Assembly (NCBI RefSeq): GCF_018390605.1
Contig: NZ_JAHBGD010000012.1
Coordinates: 216,226 to 280,225 of the forward strand
From: Ancylobacter defluvii
Lineage (GTDB): Bacteria; Pseudomonadota; Alphaproteobacteria; Rhizobiales; Xanthobacteraceae
Length of the DNA: 64,000 nt
Direction of reading: 5' to 3'
Below are positions 1 through 36,108 of the stretch, one piece after another (the stretch's first letter is position 1; every line of letters begins with the position of its first letter). A program made the translations under genes and the position numbers. The notes beneath the pieces were generated by a model. The model did not search any database and was not told the DNA's origin. It worked only from the letters and a program-made list of their open reading frames with translations.

Positions 1-453
1 GTCGTCGGCGCCGGCACCGTCACCCGGCCGGACCTGATCGAGAAGTCGATCGCCGCCGGCGCCCGCTTCCTGGTGTCGCCCGGCGTCACCCCGGCGCTGC
101 TGGAAGCCTTCGCCGAGGCGCCGGTGCCGGTGCTGCCCGGCTGCGCCACCGCCTCGGAGGCGATGACGCTGGCCGCCATGGGCTTCTCGGTGCTGAAGCT
201 GTTCCCGGCCGAGGCGGTCGGCGGCGCCAATCTGATCAAGTCGCTCTCGGCGCCGCTGCCGGATCTGCGCTTCTGCCCCACCGGCGGCATCGGCCCGGAC
301 AATGTCGGCAAATACCTGTCGCAGCCCAACATCCTCGCCGTGGGCGGCTCCTGGGTGTGCCCGAACGATGCGATCGCCGCCGGCGATTGGGGCCGCATCG
401 TCGAGCTCTCCAAGGCAGCCGCCAAGCTGCACCGCGCCGCCTTCCCGGCGTGA
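1..453 (+). CDS. eda: KDPG/KHG aldolase, C-terminal part (5' end outside window)
   Basis: The frame is open from base 1 and ends in TGA at 451-453, so the start lies upstream of the window. The 150 visible residues match the class I 2-keto-3-deoxy-6-phosphogluconate aldolase family: VVGAGTV near the beginning, PGCATASEAM, KLFPAEAVGG (the lysine of KLFPAE is the usual Schiff-base residue of the family) and the phosphate-binding CPTGGIG. By family the enzyme splits KDPG into pyruvate and glyceraldehyde-3-phosphate at the end of the Entner-Doudoroff pathway, in the cytoplasm. A GNAT gene follows 19 bp downstream on the same strand and may be cotranscribed. Confidence 0.93.
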   Translation, partial: VVGAGTVTRPDLIEKSIAAGARFLVSPGVTPALLEAFAEAPVPVLPGCATASEAMTLAAMGFSVLKLFPAEAVGGANLIKSLSAPLPDLRFCPTGGIGPDNVGKYLSQPNILAVGGSWVCPNDAIAAGDWGRIVELSKAAAKLHRAAFPA

Positions 454-472
454 GGCGAGGCCCGGCGCCACC

Positions 473-895
473 ATGATCCCCGCACCGGAGGTGCAGATCG
501 ATTATGCCCGCGAGGCGCGGATCGGCGTCGAGGAGTATCGCCAGGTGCTCCTCGAATCCGGCCTGTCGCGCATCCGCCCGGTAAACGACGACGCGCGCCT
601 CGCGGCGATCATCGAGGGCTCCAACCTCATCGTCACCGCCCGGCGGGCCGGCATCCTCGTCGGCTTCGCCCGCGGCGTTACCGATTCGAGCTGGGTCTGC
701 TATCTGGCCGATCTCGCCGTCAGCCCCTCGGTTCAGGGCCTCGGCGTCGGGCGCGGTCTGATGGATGAGAGCTACCGCCAGCTCGGCGACGGCGTCGGCG
801 TCATCCTGGCCTCAGTGCCGGAAGCGGTCGGCTTCTACGAGAAGTCCGGCATGGAGCGCATCCCCAACGTCTTCTGGCACCACCGCCGGTTCTGA
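473..895 (+). CDS. GNAT family N-acetyltransferase
   Basis: A 140-residue protein starting at ATG 473; upstream codons in this frame overlap eda and look like shadow sequence. The core shows the GNAT fold: YLADLAVSPSVQGLGVGRGLM contains the acetyl-CoA pyrophosphate-binding (Q/R)xxGxG/A signature as QGLGVG, followed by a C-terminal FYEKSGMERI motif typical of small GNAT enzymes. The substrate cannot be told from sequence. It lies 19 bp after eda on the same strand, so co-transcription is likely. Confidence 0.85.
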   Translation: MIPAPEVQIDYAREARIGVEEYRQVLLESGLSRIRPVNDDARLAAIIEGSNLIVTARRAGILVGFARGVTDSSWVCYLADLAVSPSVQGLGVGRGLMDESYRQLGDGVGVILASVPEAVGFYEKSGMERIPNVFWHHRRF

Positions 896-898
896 CGC

Positions 899-1069
899 AT
901 GCGCCGGGCAAGCCTCGTTGCCGCGCCCCTCCTCGCCGCGACCCTCGCCAGCCTGGCCGCGCCCGCCGGTGCCGCACCGCTGGAAGCGCCCGGCCCGCAG
1001 GGTCCTGGTGCGGCTGCCATCCGTCAACCATGTGCTGAAGAGCGTGGCGAGCGACGACCGCGCCGCTGA
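899..1069 (+). pseudogene. Severed signal-peptide exon of the downstream alpha/beta hydrolase
   Basis: ATG 899 opens a 56-codon frame whose first 26 residues form a convincing Sec signal peptide (MRR, hydrophobic core, then APAGAAP). The frame goes out of phase at about codon 36, exactly where a 62-bp copy of the hydrolase 3' region (1005-1066) begins, and stops at TGA 1067-1069. That stop overlaps the next ATG as TGATG. Deleting the 62 bases joins codon 35 in frame to LMPAAAHPPV of the hydrolase. I therefore read this as the original N-terminus of an exported hydrolase, cut off by the insertion. A short translated leader that couples to the next ORF is possible. Confidence 0.7.
1005..1066 (+). 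repeat. 62-bp direct repeat, copy A (inserted copy)
   Basis: Bases 1005-1066 are identical to 1759-1820 except for one base (C at 1055, T at 1809). The downstream copy is in its natural coding context inside the hydrolase gene (residues VRLPSVNHVLKSVASDDRA). The upstream copy interrupts the signal-peptide region and shifts the frame because 62 is not a multiple of three. Confidence 0.95.
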
Positions 1070-1908
1070 TGCCGGCGGCGGCGCACCCACCGGTGGCGCT
1101 GATCATCCCCGGCTCCGGCCCCACCGACCGCGACGGCGACAACCCGCTCGGCGTCAACGCCGCGCCCTATCGTCGGCTCGCCGAGGCACTGGCGGCGCAT
1201 GGCATCGCCAGCCTGCGCATCGACAAACGCGGCCTGTTCGGCAGCGCCGACGCCATACCCGACCCGAACGCCGTCACCCTCGACGACTACGCCGCCGACA
1301 TCCATGCCTGGGTGACGGCGCTGAAGGCCCGCACCGGTGCCGCCTGCATCTGGCTGATCGGTCACAGCGAAGGCGGCCTGGTGGCGCTGAAGGCCGCCGC
1401 CGATCCCGCCGGCATCTGCGGCGTCGTCCTCCTCGCCACGCCCGGCCGCCCGATGGGCGAGATGTTGCGCGAACAGTTCCAGGCCACCCCCGCAAATGCG
1501 CCCTATCGCGCCGCCGCCTTCGGGGCCATCGCGGCGCTGGAGGCCGGTCGCCACGTCGATCCGGCAACGCTCGCCCCGCCGCTGCGGCCGCTGTTCGCGC
1601 CGCAGATCCAGGGCTTCCTGATCTCCGCTTTCGCCTTCGATCCGGCGCCCGCGCTCGCCGGCCTCCGCCTGCCGGTGCTGATCGTGCAGGGAGGGCGCGA
1701 CCTGCAGGTGAGCGACGCGGACGCCCGCCGCCTCGCCGCCGCCCAGCCAAAGGCACGGCTGGTGCGGCTGCCATCCGTCAACCATGTGCTGAAGAGCGTG
1801 GCGAGCGATGACCGCGCCGCCAATCTCGCCACCTATGCCGATGCCGCCCTGCCGCTGGCACCCGGCGTGACGGAGGCGATCGCCGGCTTCATCGCCGCGC
1901 CGCGCTGA
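1069..1908 (+). CDS. Alpha/beta hydrolase, now lacking its in-frame signal peptide
   Basis: A 279-residue alpha/beta hydrolase. It opens with the oxyanion-region sequence PGSGPTDRDGDNPLG, which is characteristic of a family of exported serine hydrolases, then has the nucleophile elbow GHSEGG and a late histidine in LPSVNHVLK. The family is annotated as esterase or peptidase-like; the substrate is unknown. The present start, ATG 1069, follows the TGA of the 56-codon leader as TGATG, so restart by coupling is possible, but the product would be cytoplasmic. Frame and length suggest the native protein was about 314 residues with a signal peptide starting at 899. Residues VRLPSV through DDRA (1759-1820) are the source of the upstream 62-bp copy. 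Confidence 0.8.
   Translation: MPAAAHPPVALIIPGSGPTDRDGDNPLGVNAAPYRRLAEALAAHGIASLRIDKRGLFGSADAIPDPNAVTLDDYAADIHAWVTALKARTGAACIWLIGHSEGGLVALKAAADPAGICGVVLLATPGRPMGEMLREQFQATPANAPYRAAAFGAIAALEAGRHVDPATLAPPLRPLFAPQIQGFLISAFAFDPAPALAGLRLPVLIVQGGRDLQVSDADARRLAAAQPKARLVRLPSVNHVLKSVASDDRAANLATYADAALPLAPGVTEAIAGFIAAPR
1759..1820 (+). repeat. 62-bp direct repeat, copy B (native copy)
   Basis: This is the in-frame source segment of the repeat described at 1005-1066, inside the hydrolase gene around the putative catalytic histidine. The copies are offset by 754 bp with 61 of 62 bases identical. Confidence 0.95.
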
Positions 1909-32146: not shown

Positions 32147-33826
32147 TCAGCGCTGAGCATGCTGCCAGTTCGCGGCACGGTAATAGGGCGCGTTGGACGG
32201 CGCCAGCGCCGGCCGGCCGAGAATATGGTCGGCCGCCTTCTCCGCCAGCATGATGGTCGGCGCGTTGAGGTTGCCGGTGGTCACGGAGGGCATGATGGAC
32301 GAATCCACCACCCTCAGCCCCTCGACACCGATCACCCGCGCCTGCGGATCGACCACCGCCAGCGGATCGGCGAGCGCGCCCATCTTGCAGGTGCAGGAGG
32401 GGTGATAGGCGCTCTCCACCTTGTCGCGGATGAAGCCGTCGATGGCCTCATCGTCCACCACATCGGCCCCCGGCTGGATCTCGCGACCGCGATAGCGATC
32501 GAACGCCTTCTGGGCAAAGATCTCGCGCGTGAGCCGCACGCAGGCCCGCATTTCCGTCCAGTCGTCGGGATGGCTCATATAGTTGAAGAAGAGCCGCGGC
32601 TTGTCGGCGGGATCGGCCGAGCGCAGCCGCACCCAGCCACGGCTCTTTGAGCGCATCGGCCCGACATGGGCCTGAAAACCATGCTCGGAAGCGAGGCCCT
32701 GACCGTCATAGGTCACGGCCAGCGGCAGGAAGTGATACTGGATGTCGGGAGAGGCCACGCCCGGCCGCGACCGGATGAAGCCACAGCTCTCGAAATGGTT
32801 GGTGGCGCCGAGTCCATCCCTCCGCAGCAGCCAGCGCAAGCCTATGCCCGCGCGGGCCACCAAGCCCATGGACGAATAAAGGGTGATCGGCTGTTTGCAG
32901 GCGACCTGGAAATAGAATTCGAGATGGTCCTGCAGATTTTCGCCCACCCCCGGCCGGTCTGCGACCATATCGATGCCGAAGCCGCGCAGTTCCGCCGCCG
33001 GCCCCACGCCGGACAGCTTGAGCAGCTGCGGCGAGTTGATCGGTCCACCAGCGAGGATCACCTCGCGCGTCGCCCGCACCTGCCGGCGCACGCCGCCGCG
33101 CTCATAGGCGACGCCGACCGCCCGGCGCCCCTCGAATACCACCTGCGTCACCCGCGCATGCGTCTCGACCTTGAGATTGTCCCGCTTCATCGCCGGACGC
33201 AGATAGGCGTTGGCGGCAGACCAGCGCACGCCGTCCTTCACCGTCATGTCCATGCGCCCGAAGCCTTCCTGGGCGTATCCGTTGACGTCGTCGCTGGCCG
33301 GGTAACCCGCCTGCCGCGCCGCTTCGAGGAAGGCATGATGCAGCGGGTTGGCAAGCGAGCCATAGCGGGTGGAAAGCGGCCCATCGCCGCCGCGATATGC
33401 GTCACCGCCCTCCTGCCGGCTCTCGGCCCGGCGAAAATAGGGCAGCACGTCGGCATAGGACCAGCCCTGCGCGCCCTGCTCCTGCCAACCGTCGAAATCG
33501 GCGGGATTGCCGCGGACGTAGACGAGGCCGTTGATCGAGGAAGAGCCGCCCAGCACCTTGCCGCGCGGGCAATGCAGGCGCCGCCCGCCGAGACCCGGCT
33601 CGGGTTCGCTCTCATACATCCAGCTATAGCGCGGCATATTCATCGGAATGGACAGCGCGCTGGGCATCTGGATGAAGATCGAGCGGTCGGAGCCACCGAA
33701 CTCCAGCACCAGCACCCGGTTCTCGCCGCTGGCGGTCAGTCGCTCGGCCAGCACGCAACCCGCCGAGCCGGCGCCGACGATGACGTAATCGAACTCCTGG
33801 TCGAACTTCGCGCCGGCGCCGGTCAT
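32147..33826 (-). CDS. betA: Choline dehydrogenase (GMC oxidoreductase)
   Basis: A 559-residue membrane-associated flavoenzyme that oxidises choline to betaine aldehyde. The FAD motif [17 protein letters not shown] is at about 14-30, GMC signature 1 is in [22 protein letters not shown] signature 2 is [14 protein letters not shown], and the C-terminal active-site region has HPSCTCKMG and [21 protein letters not shown]. Its ATG shares one base with the stop of the upstream BetI-BetB gene (TGATG, 33824-33828), so the two are translationally coupled. Confidence 0.95.
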
Positions 33827-35895
33827 CAGTAAGGCGCCTCGACCGAACCGAGATTGACGTAGACACTTTTCAGCTGCGTGTAGTGCTCGATCGCCGCCTT
33901 GCCGTTCTCGCGCCCCAGCCCGGACTGTTTGACGCCGCCGAAGGGCAGTTCGATCGGGGTGACGTTGTAATGGTTGATCCAGCAGGTGCCGGCCTCCAGC
34001 CGCGCGATCACCCGGTGGGCGCGGGCGAGATCGCGGGTAAACACCCCTGCGGCGAGGCCGAACCTTGTGTCGTTGGCGCGCGAGACCACCTCCGCCTCGT
34101 CTTCGAAGGAGAGCACCGCCATCACCGGGCCGAAGATCTCCTCGCGGACAATGGCCATGTCGTCGTGACAGCCGTCGAACACTGTCGGCGCGACGAAGCA
34201 GCCGCGGTCGAGACCACCTTCCGTTACTCGGTAGCCTCCCGTGAGCAGCTTCGCTCCACCCGCCCGCCCCCGGGCGATATAGGAGAGCACCTTCTCCATA
34301 TGCGGCTGCGAGATCAGCGCCCCGACCTGCGTCGCCGGGTCGAGCGGGTCGCCGACCACCATCTTCTCGACACGCGCGACCAGCTTCTCAAGAAACGCCG
34401 ACCGCACGCTCTCATGCACGAAGACGCGGGTACCGTTGGAACAGACCTCACCGGCGGAATAGAAATTGGCGAGCAGCGCGCCGGAGACCGCATCGTCGAG
34501 ATCGGTATCCTCGAACACGATCAGCGGTGACTTGCCGCCGAGTTCCAGCGTCACCTGCTTCAGCGTGGCGCTGGCATCCGCCATCACCTTCTTGCCCGTG
34601 CCGACCTCGCCAGTGAGCGATACCTTGGCGATATTCGGATGACGTGTGAGCAGTCGCCCGGTATCGGCGAAGCCCTGCACCACCTGGAACACGCCGTCCG
34701 GCACGCCGGCCTCGCGCATGATCTCGGCGAGCTTCACCGCGGTGAGCGGGGTCAGTTCCGCCGGCTTGAAGATCATCGCATTGCCGCAGGCGAGCGCCGG
34801 CGCCGACTTCCAGCAGGCGATCTGCAACGGGTAGTTCCAGGCGCCGATGCCGGCAACGACGCCCAGCGGCTCCCGGCGGGTATAGCCGAAGGCGCCGGGA
34901 CCGAGATCGACATGTTCCCCGGCGAGGGTCGCGGCGAGGCCGGCATAATAGTCGATGCAGTCAGCGCCGGAGAGCACGTCGACAACGCTGGTCTCCTGGA
35001 TCGGCTTGCCGGTATCGAGCGTTTCCAGCCGGGCTAGTTCGTCGTTGCGGCTGCGCAGAATGTCGGCGACCCGCTTGAGAACGCGCCCGCGCTCGGCGCC
35101 GGTCATCACCGCCCAGAGCTTCTGACCCTTGCGGGCGGCCGCGACAGCCGCCTCGATCTCCGCTTCACCGTCGATCGCGATCTCCGCGAGCACCTCGCCT
35201 GTCGCCGGATTGACGGTCTCGAAATGCCTCGAGCGCAAAATGGCGGGCGCACCGACGACGGAGTTCCGCGGTGCGGCGGCGATCTGCGCATCGACGAAGG
35301 CGGTGGCGATCGCGCGCGCCGAGGTGGAATCGGTCTCGCCCGTGGCCGACAGCGTCGAGCGCAGCCAAAGGCCATCGATGATCGCCGCCACCGCGATGGC
35401 GGCACGGTCAGCCTCCTCCTCGCGTACAAGCGGGCGCAGCGCGTGGCGCAGATTGGAACGCATGCGCGACTGGTAGACCTTCTGCACCCGTCGCAGGCGT
35501 TCGGAATGCAAGGCCTGTCCCCAGAAGGCGAGCCAGACGCTGCTGCTCGGCTTGCCGAATTCCTCCGGCGCCAGGTTGGCCTCGATCACCGCCTCGACCC
35601 GCTCGCGCGGCGATGCGGCGGCGGCGAGGCGCCAGGCGGTTCCACGCGCCACCCGCGCGGCGAGAAAGCGCAGCGTCGCCTCCAGCAACCCGTCCTTGTC
35701 GCCGAAATAATGCGCAACCAGTCCGGGGGAGACGCCGGCGCGACCGGCGATCTGCGCCAGCGTCGATGCGTTGAAGCCAATCTCGGCAAGCGAATCGATC
35801 GTCGCCTCGATAAGCTGCTGGCGGCGGACCTCCTCGCTTTCGCGCCGCCGCCCACCGGTGACGGCGGCTTCATCCTGGCGGGCAGAATTGTCCAT
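33826..35895 (-). CDS. betI/betB: BetI-BetB fusion: TetR-type choline repressor joined to betaine aldehyde dehydrogenase
   Basis: One uninterrupted frame of 689 residues. Residues 20-208 are a full BetI: an HTH with [21 protein letters not shown] (key AGVSPG and [13 protein letters not shown]), then [14 protein letters not shown] and IIDGLWLR of the choline-binding domain. Residues 224-689 are Bet[31 protein letters not shown], general base Glu451 (LELGGKSP), catalytic Cys485 (GEVCSNGTR), EEIFGPV and a C-terminal KQSGLGREN. Catalytic residues are offset by 199 from E. coli BetB C286/E252. Only about 20 N-terminal BetB residues are missing; the linker is about 15 residues. GGAGG lies 7 bases before ATG 35895. 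It is coupled to betA, and a choXWV operon diverges upstream. By family the BetB half makes glycine betaine and the BetI half represses bet genes until choline is present. Confidence 0.93.
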
Positions 35896-35919
35896 GAGGC
35901 GGCCTCCATCCGACATGCT

Positions 35920-35929
35920 ATTGATCAAT
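35920..35929. promoter_or_regulatory. ATTGATCAAT palindrome at the betIB promoter
   Basis: A perfect 10-bp palindrome in an AT-rich patch 25 bp before the BetI-BetB start codon. Its ATTGA/TCAAT arms are those of BetI-type operators as I recall them. The position would block transcription of the fusion gene, which suggests autoregulation. Confidence 0.45.
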
Positions 35930-36090
35930 GATACAATAACTGAGCCGACAGACGATGTCGAACCTCTTGAGCTCCGCCGAAGGGCCGCTCGACGACGGAA
36001 GGGAAGGCTGGAACACCCCTTGCCGAAATAGCAATCATCGACAGGTTTTCAGCGTCGAAAAATTACGCATGACAAAAGCGCGAAATCGTT

Positions 36091-36108
36091 ATTGAATTGT
36101 CATTCAAA
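36091..36108. promoter_or_regulatory. Candidate BetI operator in the betIB-choX divergent region
   Basis: ATTGAATTGTCATTCAAA has perfect TTGAAT/ATTCAA arms around TGTC. It agrees at 13 of 18 positions with the E. coli BetI site as I remember it (ATTGA...TTCAA). It is the most AT-rich part of the 378-bp region 35896-36273. The region also holds a hairpin CTTCCGG/CCGGAAG (36143-36164) and no further gene. Confidence 0.5.

Follow-up and report, generated by a model that had tools for sequence, protein, structure and literature searches.

A BetI-Type Repressor and Betaine Aldehyde Dehydrogenase Encoded in a Single Reading Frame in Ancylobacter and Its Relatives

Introduction

In Ancylobacter defluvii, a repressor of the BetI family and the betaine aldehyde dehydrogenase BetB are encoded in one reading frame, and the resulting protein probably functions as a bifunctional, choline-released autogenous repressor-enzyme in which the stoichiometry of repressor to enzyme is fixed. 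The gene lies in a stretch of 64,000 nucleotides (contig NZ_JAHBGD010000012.1, positions 216,226 to 280,225), referred to below as the window. The frame is single, both protein families are intact, both halves bear the marks of selection, operator-like sites lie upstream, the operon context consists of other bet and cho genes, and, in trees of the joined halves, the fusions form one clade.

According to a published account (PMC12442346), BetI and BetB are separate proteins in S. meliloti (betICBA) and in R. pomeroyi (BetI1). The families and the pathway are the same as those of the fusion, the operator palindrome is related, and the operon neighbors are similar, whereas the fusion is one chain instead of two and has no betC between repressor and enzyme. 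The families, the operator type, and the operon are known; what is new is the permanent attachment of the repressor to the enzyme.

The Fusion Gene and Its Two Halves

On the minus strand, the frame 33826..35928 is open throughout, and the ORF list of the window counts 700 aa from a TTG. The likelier start is the ATG at 35895, which is preceded, at a distance of 7 nt, by a Shine-Dalgarno-like GGAGG read from the sequence (35903..35907, minus strand). The gene would then occupy 33826..35895 (minus strand, stop TGA 33828-33826) and encode 689 aa, the numbering used here (the 700-aa numbering minus 11). In the 700-aa numbering, the Pfam domains are TetR_N at 39-84, TetR_C_6 at 107-216, and Aldedh at 234-689.

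The BetI half (residues 18-206; 35278..35844, minus strand) comprises a TetR_N helix-turn-helix (HTH) and a BetI-type C-terminal domain. Taken alone, it scores 212.9 bits against TIGR03384 (cut-off 201.3), covering profile positions 2-189 of 189, and 207.4 bits against PRK00767 (cut-off 118). The BetB half extends over residues 224-689 (33829..35226, minus strand), and the whole fusion scores 798.1 bits against PRK13252 (cut-off 593) and 693.7 bits against TIGR01804 (cut-off 668.6), all four thresholds being NCBI curated equivalog cut-offs. Of the 488 positions of the PRK13252 profile, the match begins only at the 21st, which means that the fusion lacks about 20 residues from the N-terminus of free BetB; it thus has no complete BetB N-terminus, though the cut-offs of the BetB models do not demand one. 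The closest solved structures to the whole fusion are betaine aldehyde dehydrogenases: the best 50 of 1687 rows of the structure search are all aldehyde dehydrogenases (ALDHs), betaine aldehyde dehydrogenases first, with no TetR chain among them. By sequence search, the BetI half matches TetR-family chains, the best being 3e7q. An AlphaFold2 model of the monomer, based on an alignment of 56 of the best 120 proteins matched by the fusion, gives TetR-domain helices followed by an ALDH domain (mean pLDDT 77.2, pTM 0.61), with pLDDT below 50 at residues 211-222 and in places within the ALDH half, especially 326-341 and 636-680.

The 123 fused loci that were classified yielded distinct proteins and distinct upstream regions, 106 of each, those of the window included. 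Asn354, Lys377, Glu451, and Cys485, which we take to be the catalytic residues of the BetB half, are invariant in all 106 proteins, as are W121, F124, W125, and W177, aromatic residues of the BetI half that would hold choline. The first-pass annotation had described a complete BetI repressor and a BetB in one frame, the latter with Glu451 and Cys485 but without about 20 N-terminal residues; this description is borne out, down to its coordinates and residues, by the cut-offs exceeded in both halves, the start of the PRK13252 match, and the invariance of both residues.

Within the four-genome subclade to which the window belongs, the HTH (44 codons) has a dN of 0 for a dS of 0.445, with no amino-acid change; for the remainder of BetI, for BetB, and for the 17-column linker, the dN/dS values are 0.080, 0.088, and 0.335. 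The corresponding pN/pS values in the 30 genus genomes are 0.066 for the HTH, 0.355 for the remainder of BetI, 0.216 for BetB, and 0.746 for the linker. These values indicate purifying selection on both halves. A degenerate BetI half was considered and rejected, given that the equivalog cut-off is passed, the dN of the HTH is 0, and the aromatic residues are invariant.

Distribution of the Fusion

A full-length match in a single stop-free frame is present in all 30 genomes of the genus, A. defluvii included. Relatives far beyond the genus share it: the best 80 of 582 loci in a search for relatives are all fused, and each of the best 120 of at least 8000 scored proteins has TetR_N, TetR_C_6, and Aldedh. 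Judged by their record titles, the 80 loci span the Hyphomicrobiales (including Ancylobacter, Azorhizobium, Kaistia, Aureimonas, Methylobrevis, and Rhodomicrobium), the Caulobacterales, Acidocella, Acidisoma, and metagenome-assembled genomes (MAGs) labelled Gammaproteobacteria, 15 of the 80 being without class placement. The idea of a fusion private to the A. defluvii genome was rejected on these grounds. That the fusion is an artefact of sequencing or assembly is vanishingly improbable, and this explanation too was rejected, as the same frame and the identical architecture recur in 30/30 genus genomes and 80/80 best relatives. The first-pass annotation had suggested a search of protein databases and related genomes for the same architecture, and had named close relatives with two separate genes as what would speak against it; the fusion occurs in related genomes and in UniRef, and the genus genomes are fused without exception.

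In wider sampling, the fusion is a minority arrangement. In evenly drawn samples, it occurs in no fewer than 5 of 398 genomes from the phylum (a match at 1e-120 in 124), 12 of 297 from the order (a match at 1e-150 in 99), and 3 of 385 from the class (a match at 1e-150 in 49). These counts are lower bounds because two or three candidates were scored per genome and an in-frame BetI was looked for only at the loci retrieved (up to 30 at a time). Adjacent betI and betB genes, with a full-length match interrupted by one or two stops, are present in 5 genomes of the phylum sample and 2 of the class sample. A plasmid of Komagataeibacter saccharivorans (L204, NZ_CP023037.1) carries a fusion annotated as betB only, with betA downstream and a gene for a TonB-dependent receptor at the upstream place of choX; in an Indioceanicola plasmid record, betI and betB are split. 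Besides its fusion, genus member G028 encodes a second BetB-like dehydrogenase, 55% identical, at C10:86143-87630, and G028 is the only one of the 30 with a further match above 50% identity among the best matches listed.

The Junction

The linker (residues 207-223; 35227..35277, minus strand) has no invariant column among its 17 in the genus and falls in the region of pLDDT below 50 (211-222); across the fusions, linker length ranges from 9 to 41. A question at the junction is whether BetB might also be made alone. In the window (L001), the sole start-like codon there is a TTG without a Shine-Dalgarno sequence, and, in the nearest relatives, ATG, GTG, TTG, and CTG are all absent (L009 and L010) or only a CTG is present (L011), so that separate synthesis of BetB appears unlikely in this four-genome subclade. 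Elsewhere, 50 of the 106 distinct fusions have an in-frame junction ATG and 9 have such an ATG with a Shine-Dalgarno-like motif, which makes free BetB possible in some of them.

The first strand of BetB, recognizable by its xGG motif, is retained in 69 of the 106 fusions by eye and in 71 by pattern, the gap being due to L083 and L087, which look like chance matches. It is kept in 26 of the 30 genus genomes and missing in the window's subclade (with L009, L010, and L011), which has neither this strand nor a junction ATG. No genus member outside this subclade has lost the roughly 20 BetB residues. Among the other fusions, the strand is absent in all 19 loci labelled Gammaproteobacteria by eye (18 by pattern), in L085, L065, L119, and L120, and in some unplaced MAGs.

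Operon and Operator-like Sites

The ATG of betA (choline dehydrogenase; 32147..33826, minus strand) overlaps the stop of the fusion gene by one base (TGATG). Divergently upstream lie choX, for a choline-binding protein (TIGR03414; 36274..37233, plus strand), choW, for a permease (TIGR03416; 37334..38218, plus strand), and choV, for an ATPase (TIGR03415; 38230..39423, plus strand), and each of these four genes exceeds the threshold of its curated model. Of the best 80 of 582 loci, 78 have betA downstream in the same orientation and 55 have a divergent choX upstream, at least 1500 upstream bases being present at 73 of the 80.

A promoter-like TCGACA-17-TATTGT, recognized by consensus match only, precedes the fusion gene (35933..35961, minus strand). 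A matrix places two BetI-box-like sites in the window: a weak proximal one of 11.6 bits (35921..35940), over the -10-like hexamer, and a distal one of 20.5 bits (36088..36107), 167 bp from it, whose core matches TTGAAYNNNNRTTCAA perfectly, as does only one other place in the genome. Both sites, known from their sequence only, are imperfect. When 19 loci were scanned under a strict palindrome criterion, few gave a BetI-box-like palindrome, and the region upstream of the window's gene gave none. The consensus TTGATTGAACGTTCAATCAA, suggested by two loci of that scan, is matched at no fewer than 14 of its 20 positions in the upstream regions of 77 of the 106 distinct fusions, compared to 0.9% of 2120 dinucleotide shuffles. 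Since the split loci L165, L170, and L172 contain ATTGACGCGTCAAT, the palindrome footprinted for R. pomeroyi BetI1 (PMC12442346), TTGATTGAACGTTCAATCAA can be assigned to the betI-box kind, though its center differs from that of the R. pomeroyi palindrome. At a threshold of 10 bits, the matrix finds a site in 105 of the 106 fused upstream regions and two or more in 81 (as against 0 of 1060 shuffles), a result that is partly circular because the matrix was refined on the same regions.

In the fused loci, the median spacing of two sites is 168 bp, with no clear signal of helical phasing (R 0.19 near 10.5 bp). Two or more sites are also found in 6 of 29 split loci, four of which are sister loci (f110) with choX divergent, their best sites scoring 15.2-22.8 bits; another split sister group (f128) has one site of 19.7 bits. 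Since split sister loci with choX divergent have two sites too, the two-box layout probably predates the fusion, and the proposal that avidity of the fusion was the cause of two weak boxes is weakened. Among fused loci with at least 500 upstream bases, two or more sites occur at 70 of the 84 that have divergent cho genes and at 10 of the 18 that do not. The median best site is weaker in fused than in split loci, both where the cho genes are divergent (21.5 bits, n = 84, vs 29.75, n = 12) and where they are not (18.9 bits, n = 18, vs 25.4, n = 17).

The genome-wide scan located the other perfect TTGAAYNNNNRTTCAA place at L203 1501-1516 (G000 C6:1708-1723), 158 bp from the start of a frame (75-1343, minus strand) that resembles an ABC substrate-binding protein by eye. 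The same genome has a second TetR_C_6 regulator above the Pfam cut-off (L175, G000 C25:294717-295061), adjoining frames that resemble, by eye, an agmatine deiminase and an aminotransferase, and a third, at C2:15368, also passes.

Origin of the Fusion

In a joined BetI and BetB tree, 39 fused rows, a hand-picked spread of the 106 distinct fusions, are parted from 29 split rows by one branch with a support of 92. Without three long rows, the division is 37 fused to 28 split (support 97/93); with eight further loci, it is 41 to 35, and all 41 sampled fusions form one clade (support 100/93). A quick BetB-only tree of 149 rows agrees in part: it needs three changes rather than one, nine split loci falling among the fusions, L120 outside, and L122 inside. 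L122 (G296), in whose fetched stretch no BetI was found, might have lost its repressor half.

In the joined trees, the sister group of the fusions consists of these nine split loci (L156-L164). Five of the nine (L157, L159, L160, L161, and L164) have a betI stop that overlaps a betB start, as ATGA in four and TTGA in one; in the other four, a candidate betB ATG lies at a distance of 20 to 154 bases, counted from where the betI stop begins. Such an overlap is a plausible pre-fusion state, in which a change of frame would yield the fusion.

A Possible Mechanism and Its Alternatives

In the proposed mechanism, which is the simplest reading, the BetI half would bind operators in the betIB/choX intergenic region and thereby keep down both its own gene, along with betA, and the genes of the choline importer, choXWV. 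Once imported, choline would bind the BetI half and lift repression, whereupon the BetB half, the second enzyme of the pathway, would oxidize betaine aldehyde to glycine betaine. Because one polypeptide would serve both functions, each copy of the enzyme would be a copy of the repressor, and, when choline falls, repression would return in proportion to the enzyme already made, a feedback from which a benefit of fixed stoichiometry might arise. Counting against this reading are the 9 of 106 fusions with an ATG and a Shine-Dalgarno-like motif, the three changes of the BetB-only tree, the negative strict scan, and the imperfect boxes.

One alternative is that the fusion is nearly neutral, its halves behaving as separate proteins would, with a tether but no regulatory change. 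This reading, which deserves a hearing but is unlikely, has in its favor the unconserved linker (pN/pS 0.746 across the genus, 0/17 invariant columns) and the stop and start that already overlap in 5/9 sister loci. It fits less well with the persistence of the fusion across many genera, with joined trees that call for no reversion to split genes (although L122, in the BetB-only tree, may be one), and with the existence of at least two separate groups of fusions without BetB's own first strand, a loss that makes the enzyme more dependent on being fused. Another mechanism could be based on internal initiation, which would provide free BetB and leave the fused protein mainly as a repressor by-product; the junction ATG of 50/106 fusions speaks for it, but the Shine-Dalgarno-like motif accompanies that ATG in only 9/106, and the window's subclade has no junction ATG, which leaves it very improbable.

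A more ambitious reading, and a rather doubtful one, is that of a true trigger enzyme, in which the BetB half would sense betaine aldehyde or NAD(H), its catalytic state would alter DNA binding, and the two BetI dimers of a tetramer would bridge both operators. The paired sites in 81/106 fused upstream regions, absent from the shuffles and a median of 168 bp apart, are consistent with it, as are the weaker best sites of the fused loci, which avidity would permit. However, the site matrix was trained on the same regions, the four split sister loci have two sites as well, and helical phasing is not clear; moreover, the linker varies in length (9-41) and has low model confidence, which argues against tight allosteric coupling. 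Operator bridging by an ALDH tetramer is attractive, yet the controls do not favor it. In its fullest form, BetIB would be a PutA-like machine that evolved a second time and independently: two TetR dimers, carried by an ALDH tetramer, would clamp both operators of the betIB/choXWV divergon and release them on choline, the release being adjusted to the betaine aldehyde or NAD(H) that the attached active site encounters; this is a speculation that we hold to be more doubtful still.

The comparison with PutA had been made in the first-pass annotation. Trifunctional PutA (PMC5293562) represses its own gene and its transporter gene, as the fusion is proposed to do; it also resembles the fusion in having an N-terminal DNA-binding domain on a catabolic enzyme with an aldehyde dehydrogenase reaction as the second step. 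Features of PutA alone are its ribbon-helix-helix (RHH) domain, its binding to the membrane, and its flavin redox switch. The fusion has instead a TetR-type BetI domain, and Pfam finds in it only TetR_N, TetR_C_6, and Aldedh, with no proline dehydrogenase or RHH domain. The parallel is therefore one of logic rather than of parts.

Meaning of the Fusion

Some UniRef entries for the fusion are titled 'Multifunctional fusion protein', while many NCBI names are 'betaine-aldehyde dehydrogenase'; most database names cite the enzyme half only, a few the TetR regulator only, and none describes the combined function. Among the open-access papers listed in capped literature searches, no title or opening abstract describes a BetI-BetB fusion, which is weak evidence of absence. 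The first-pass annotation, which knew of no described BetI-BetB trigger enzyme, agrees with those listings but has to be qualified by the UniRef titles. One study has reportedly dealt with ALDH-ADH gene fusions (PMC12454647).

The fusion is a TetR-type repressor permanently joined to an enzyme of its own pathway, an arrangement maintained across many genera. As many database entries name only the enzyme, the regulator within it is hidden. The relatives constitute a natural series, with genes that are split, overlapping, fused with a leftover start, or fused and truncated, and this series allows one to ask why fixing the stoichiometry of repressor to enzyme might pay.
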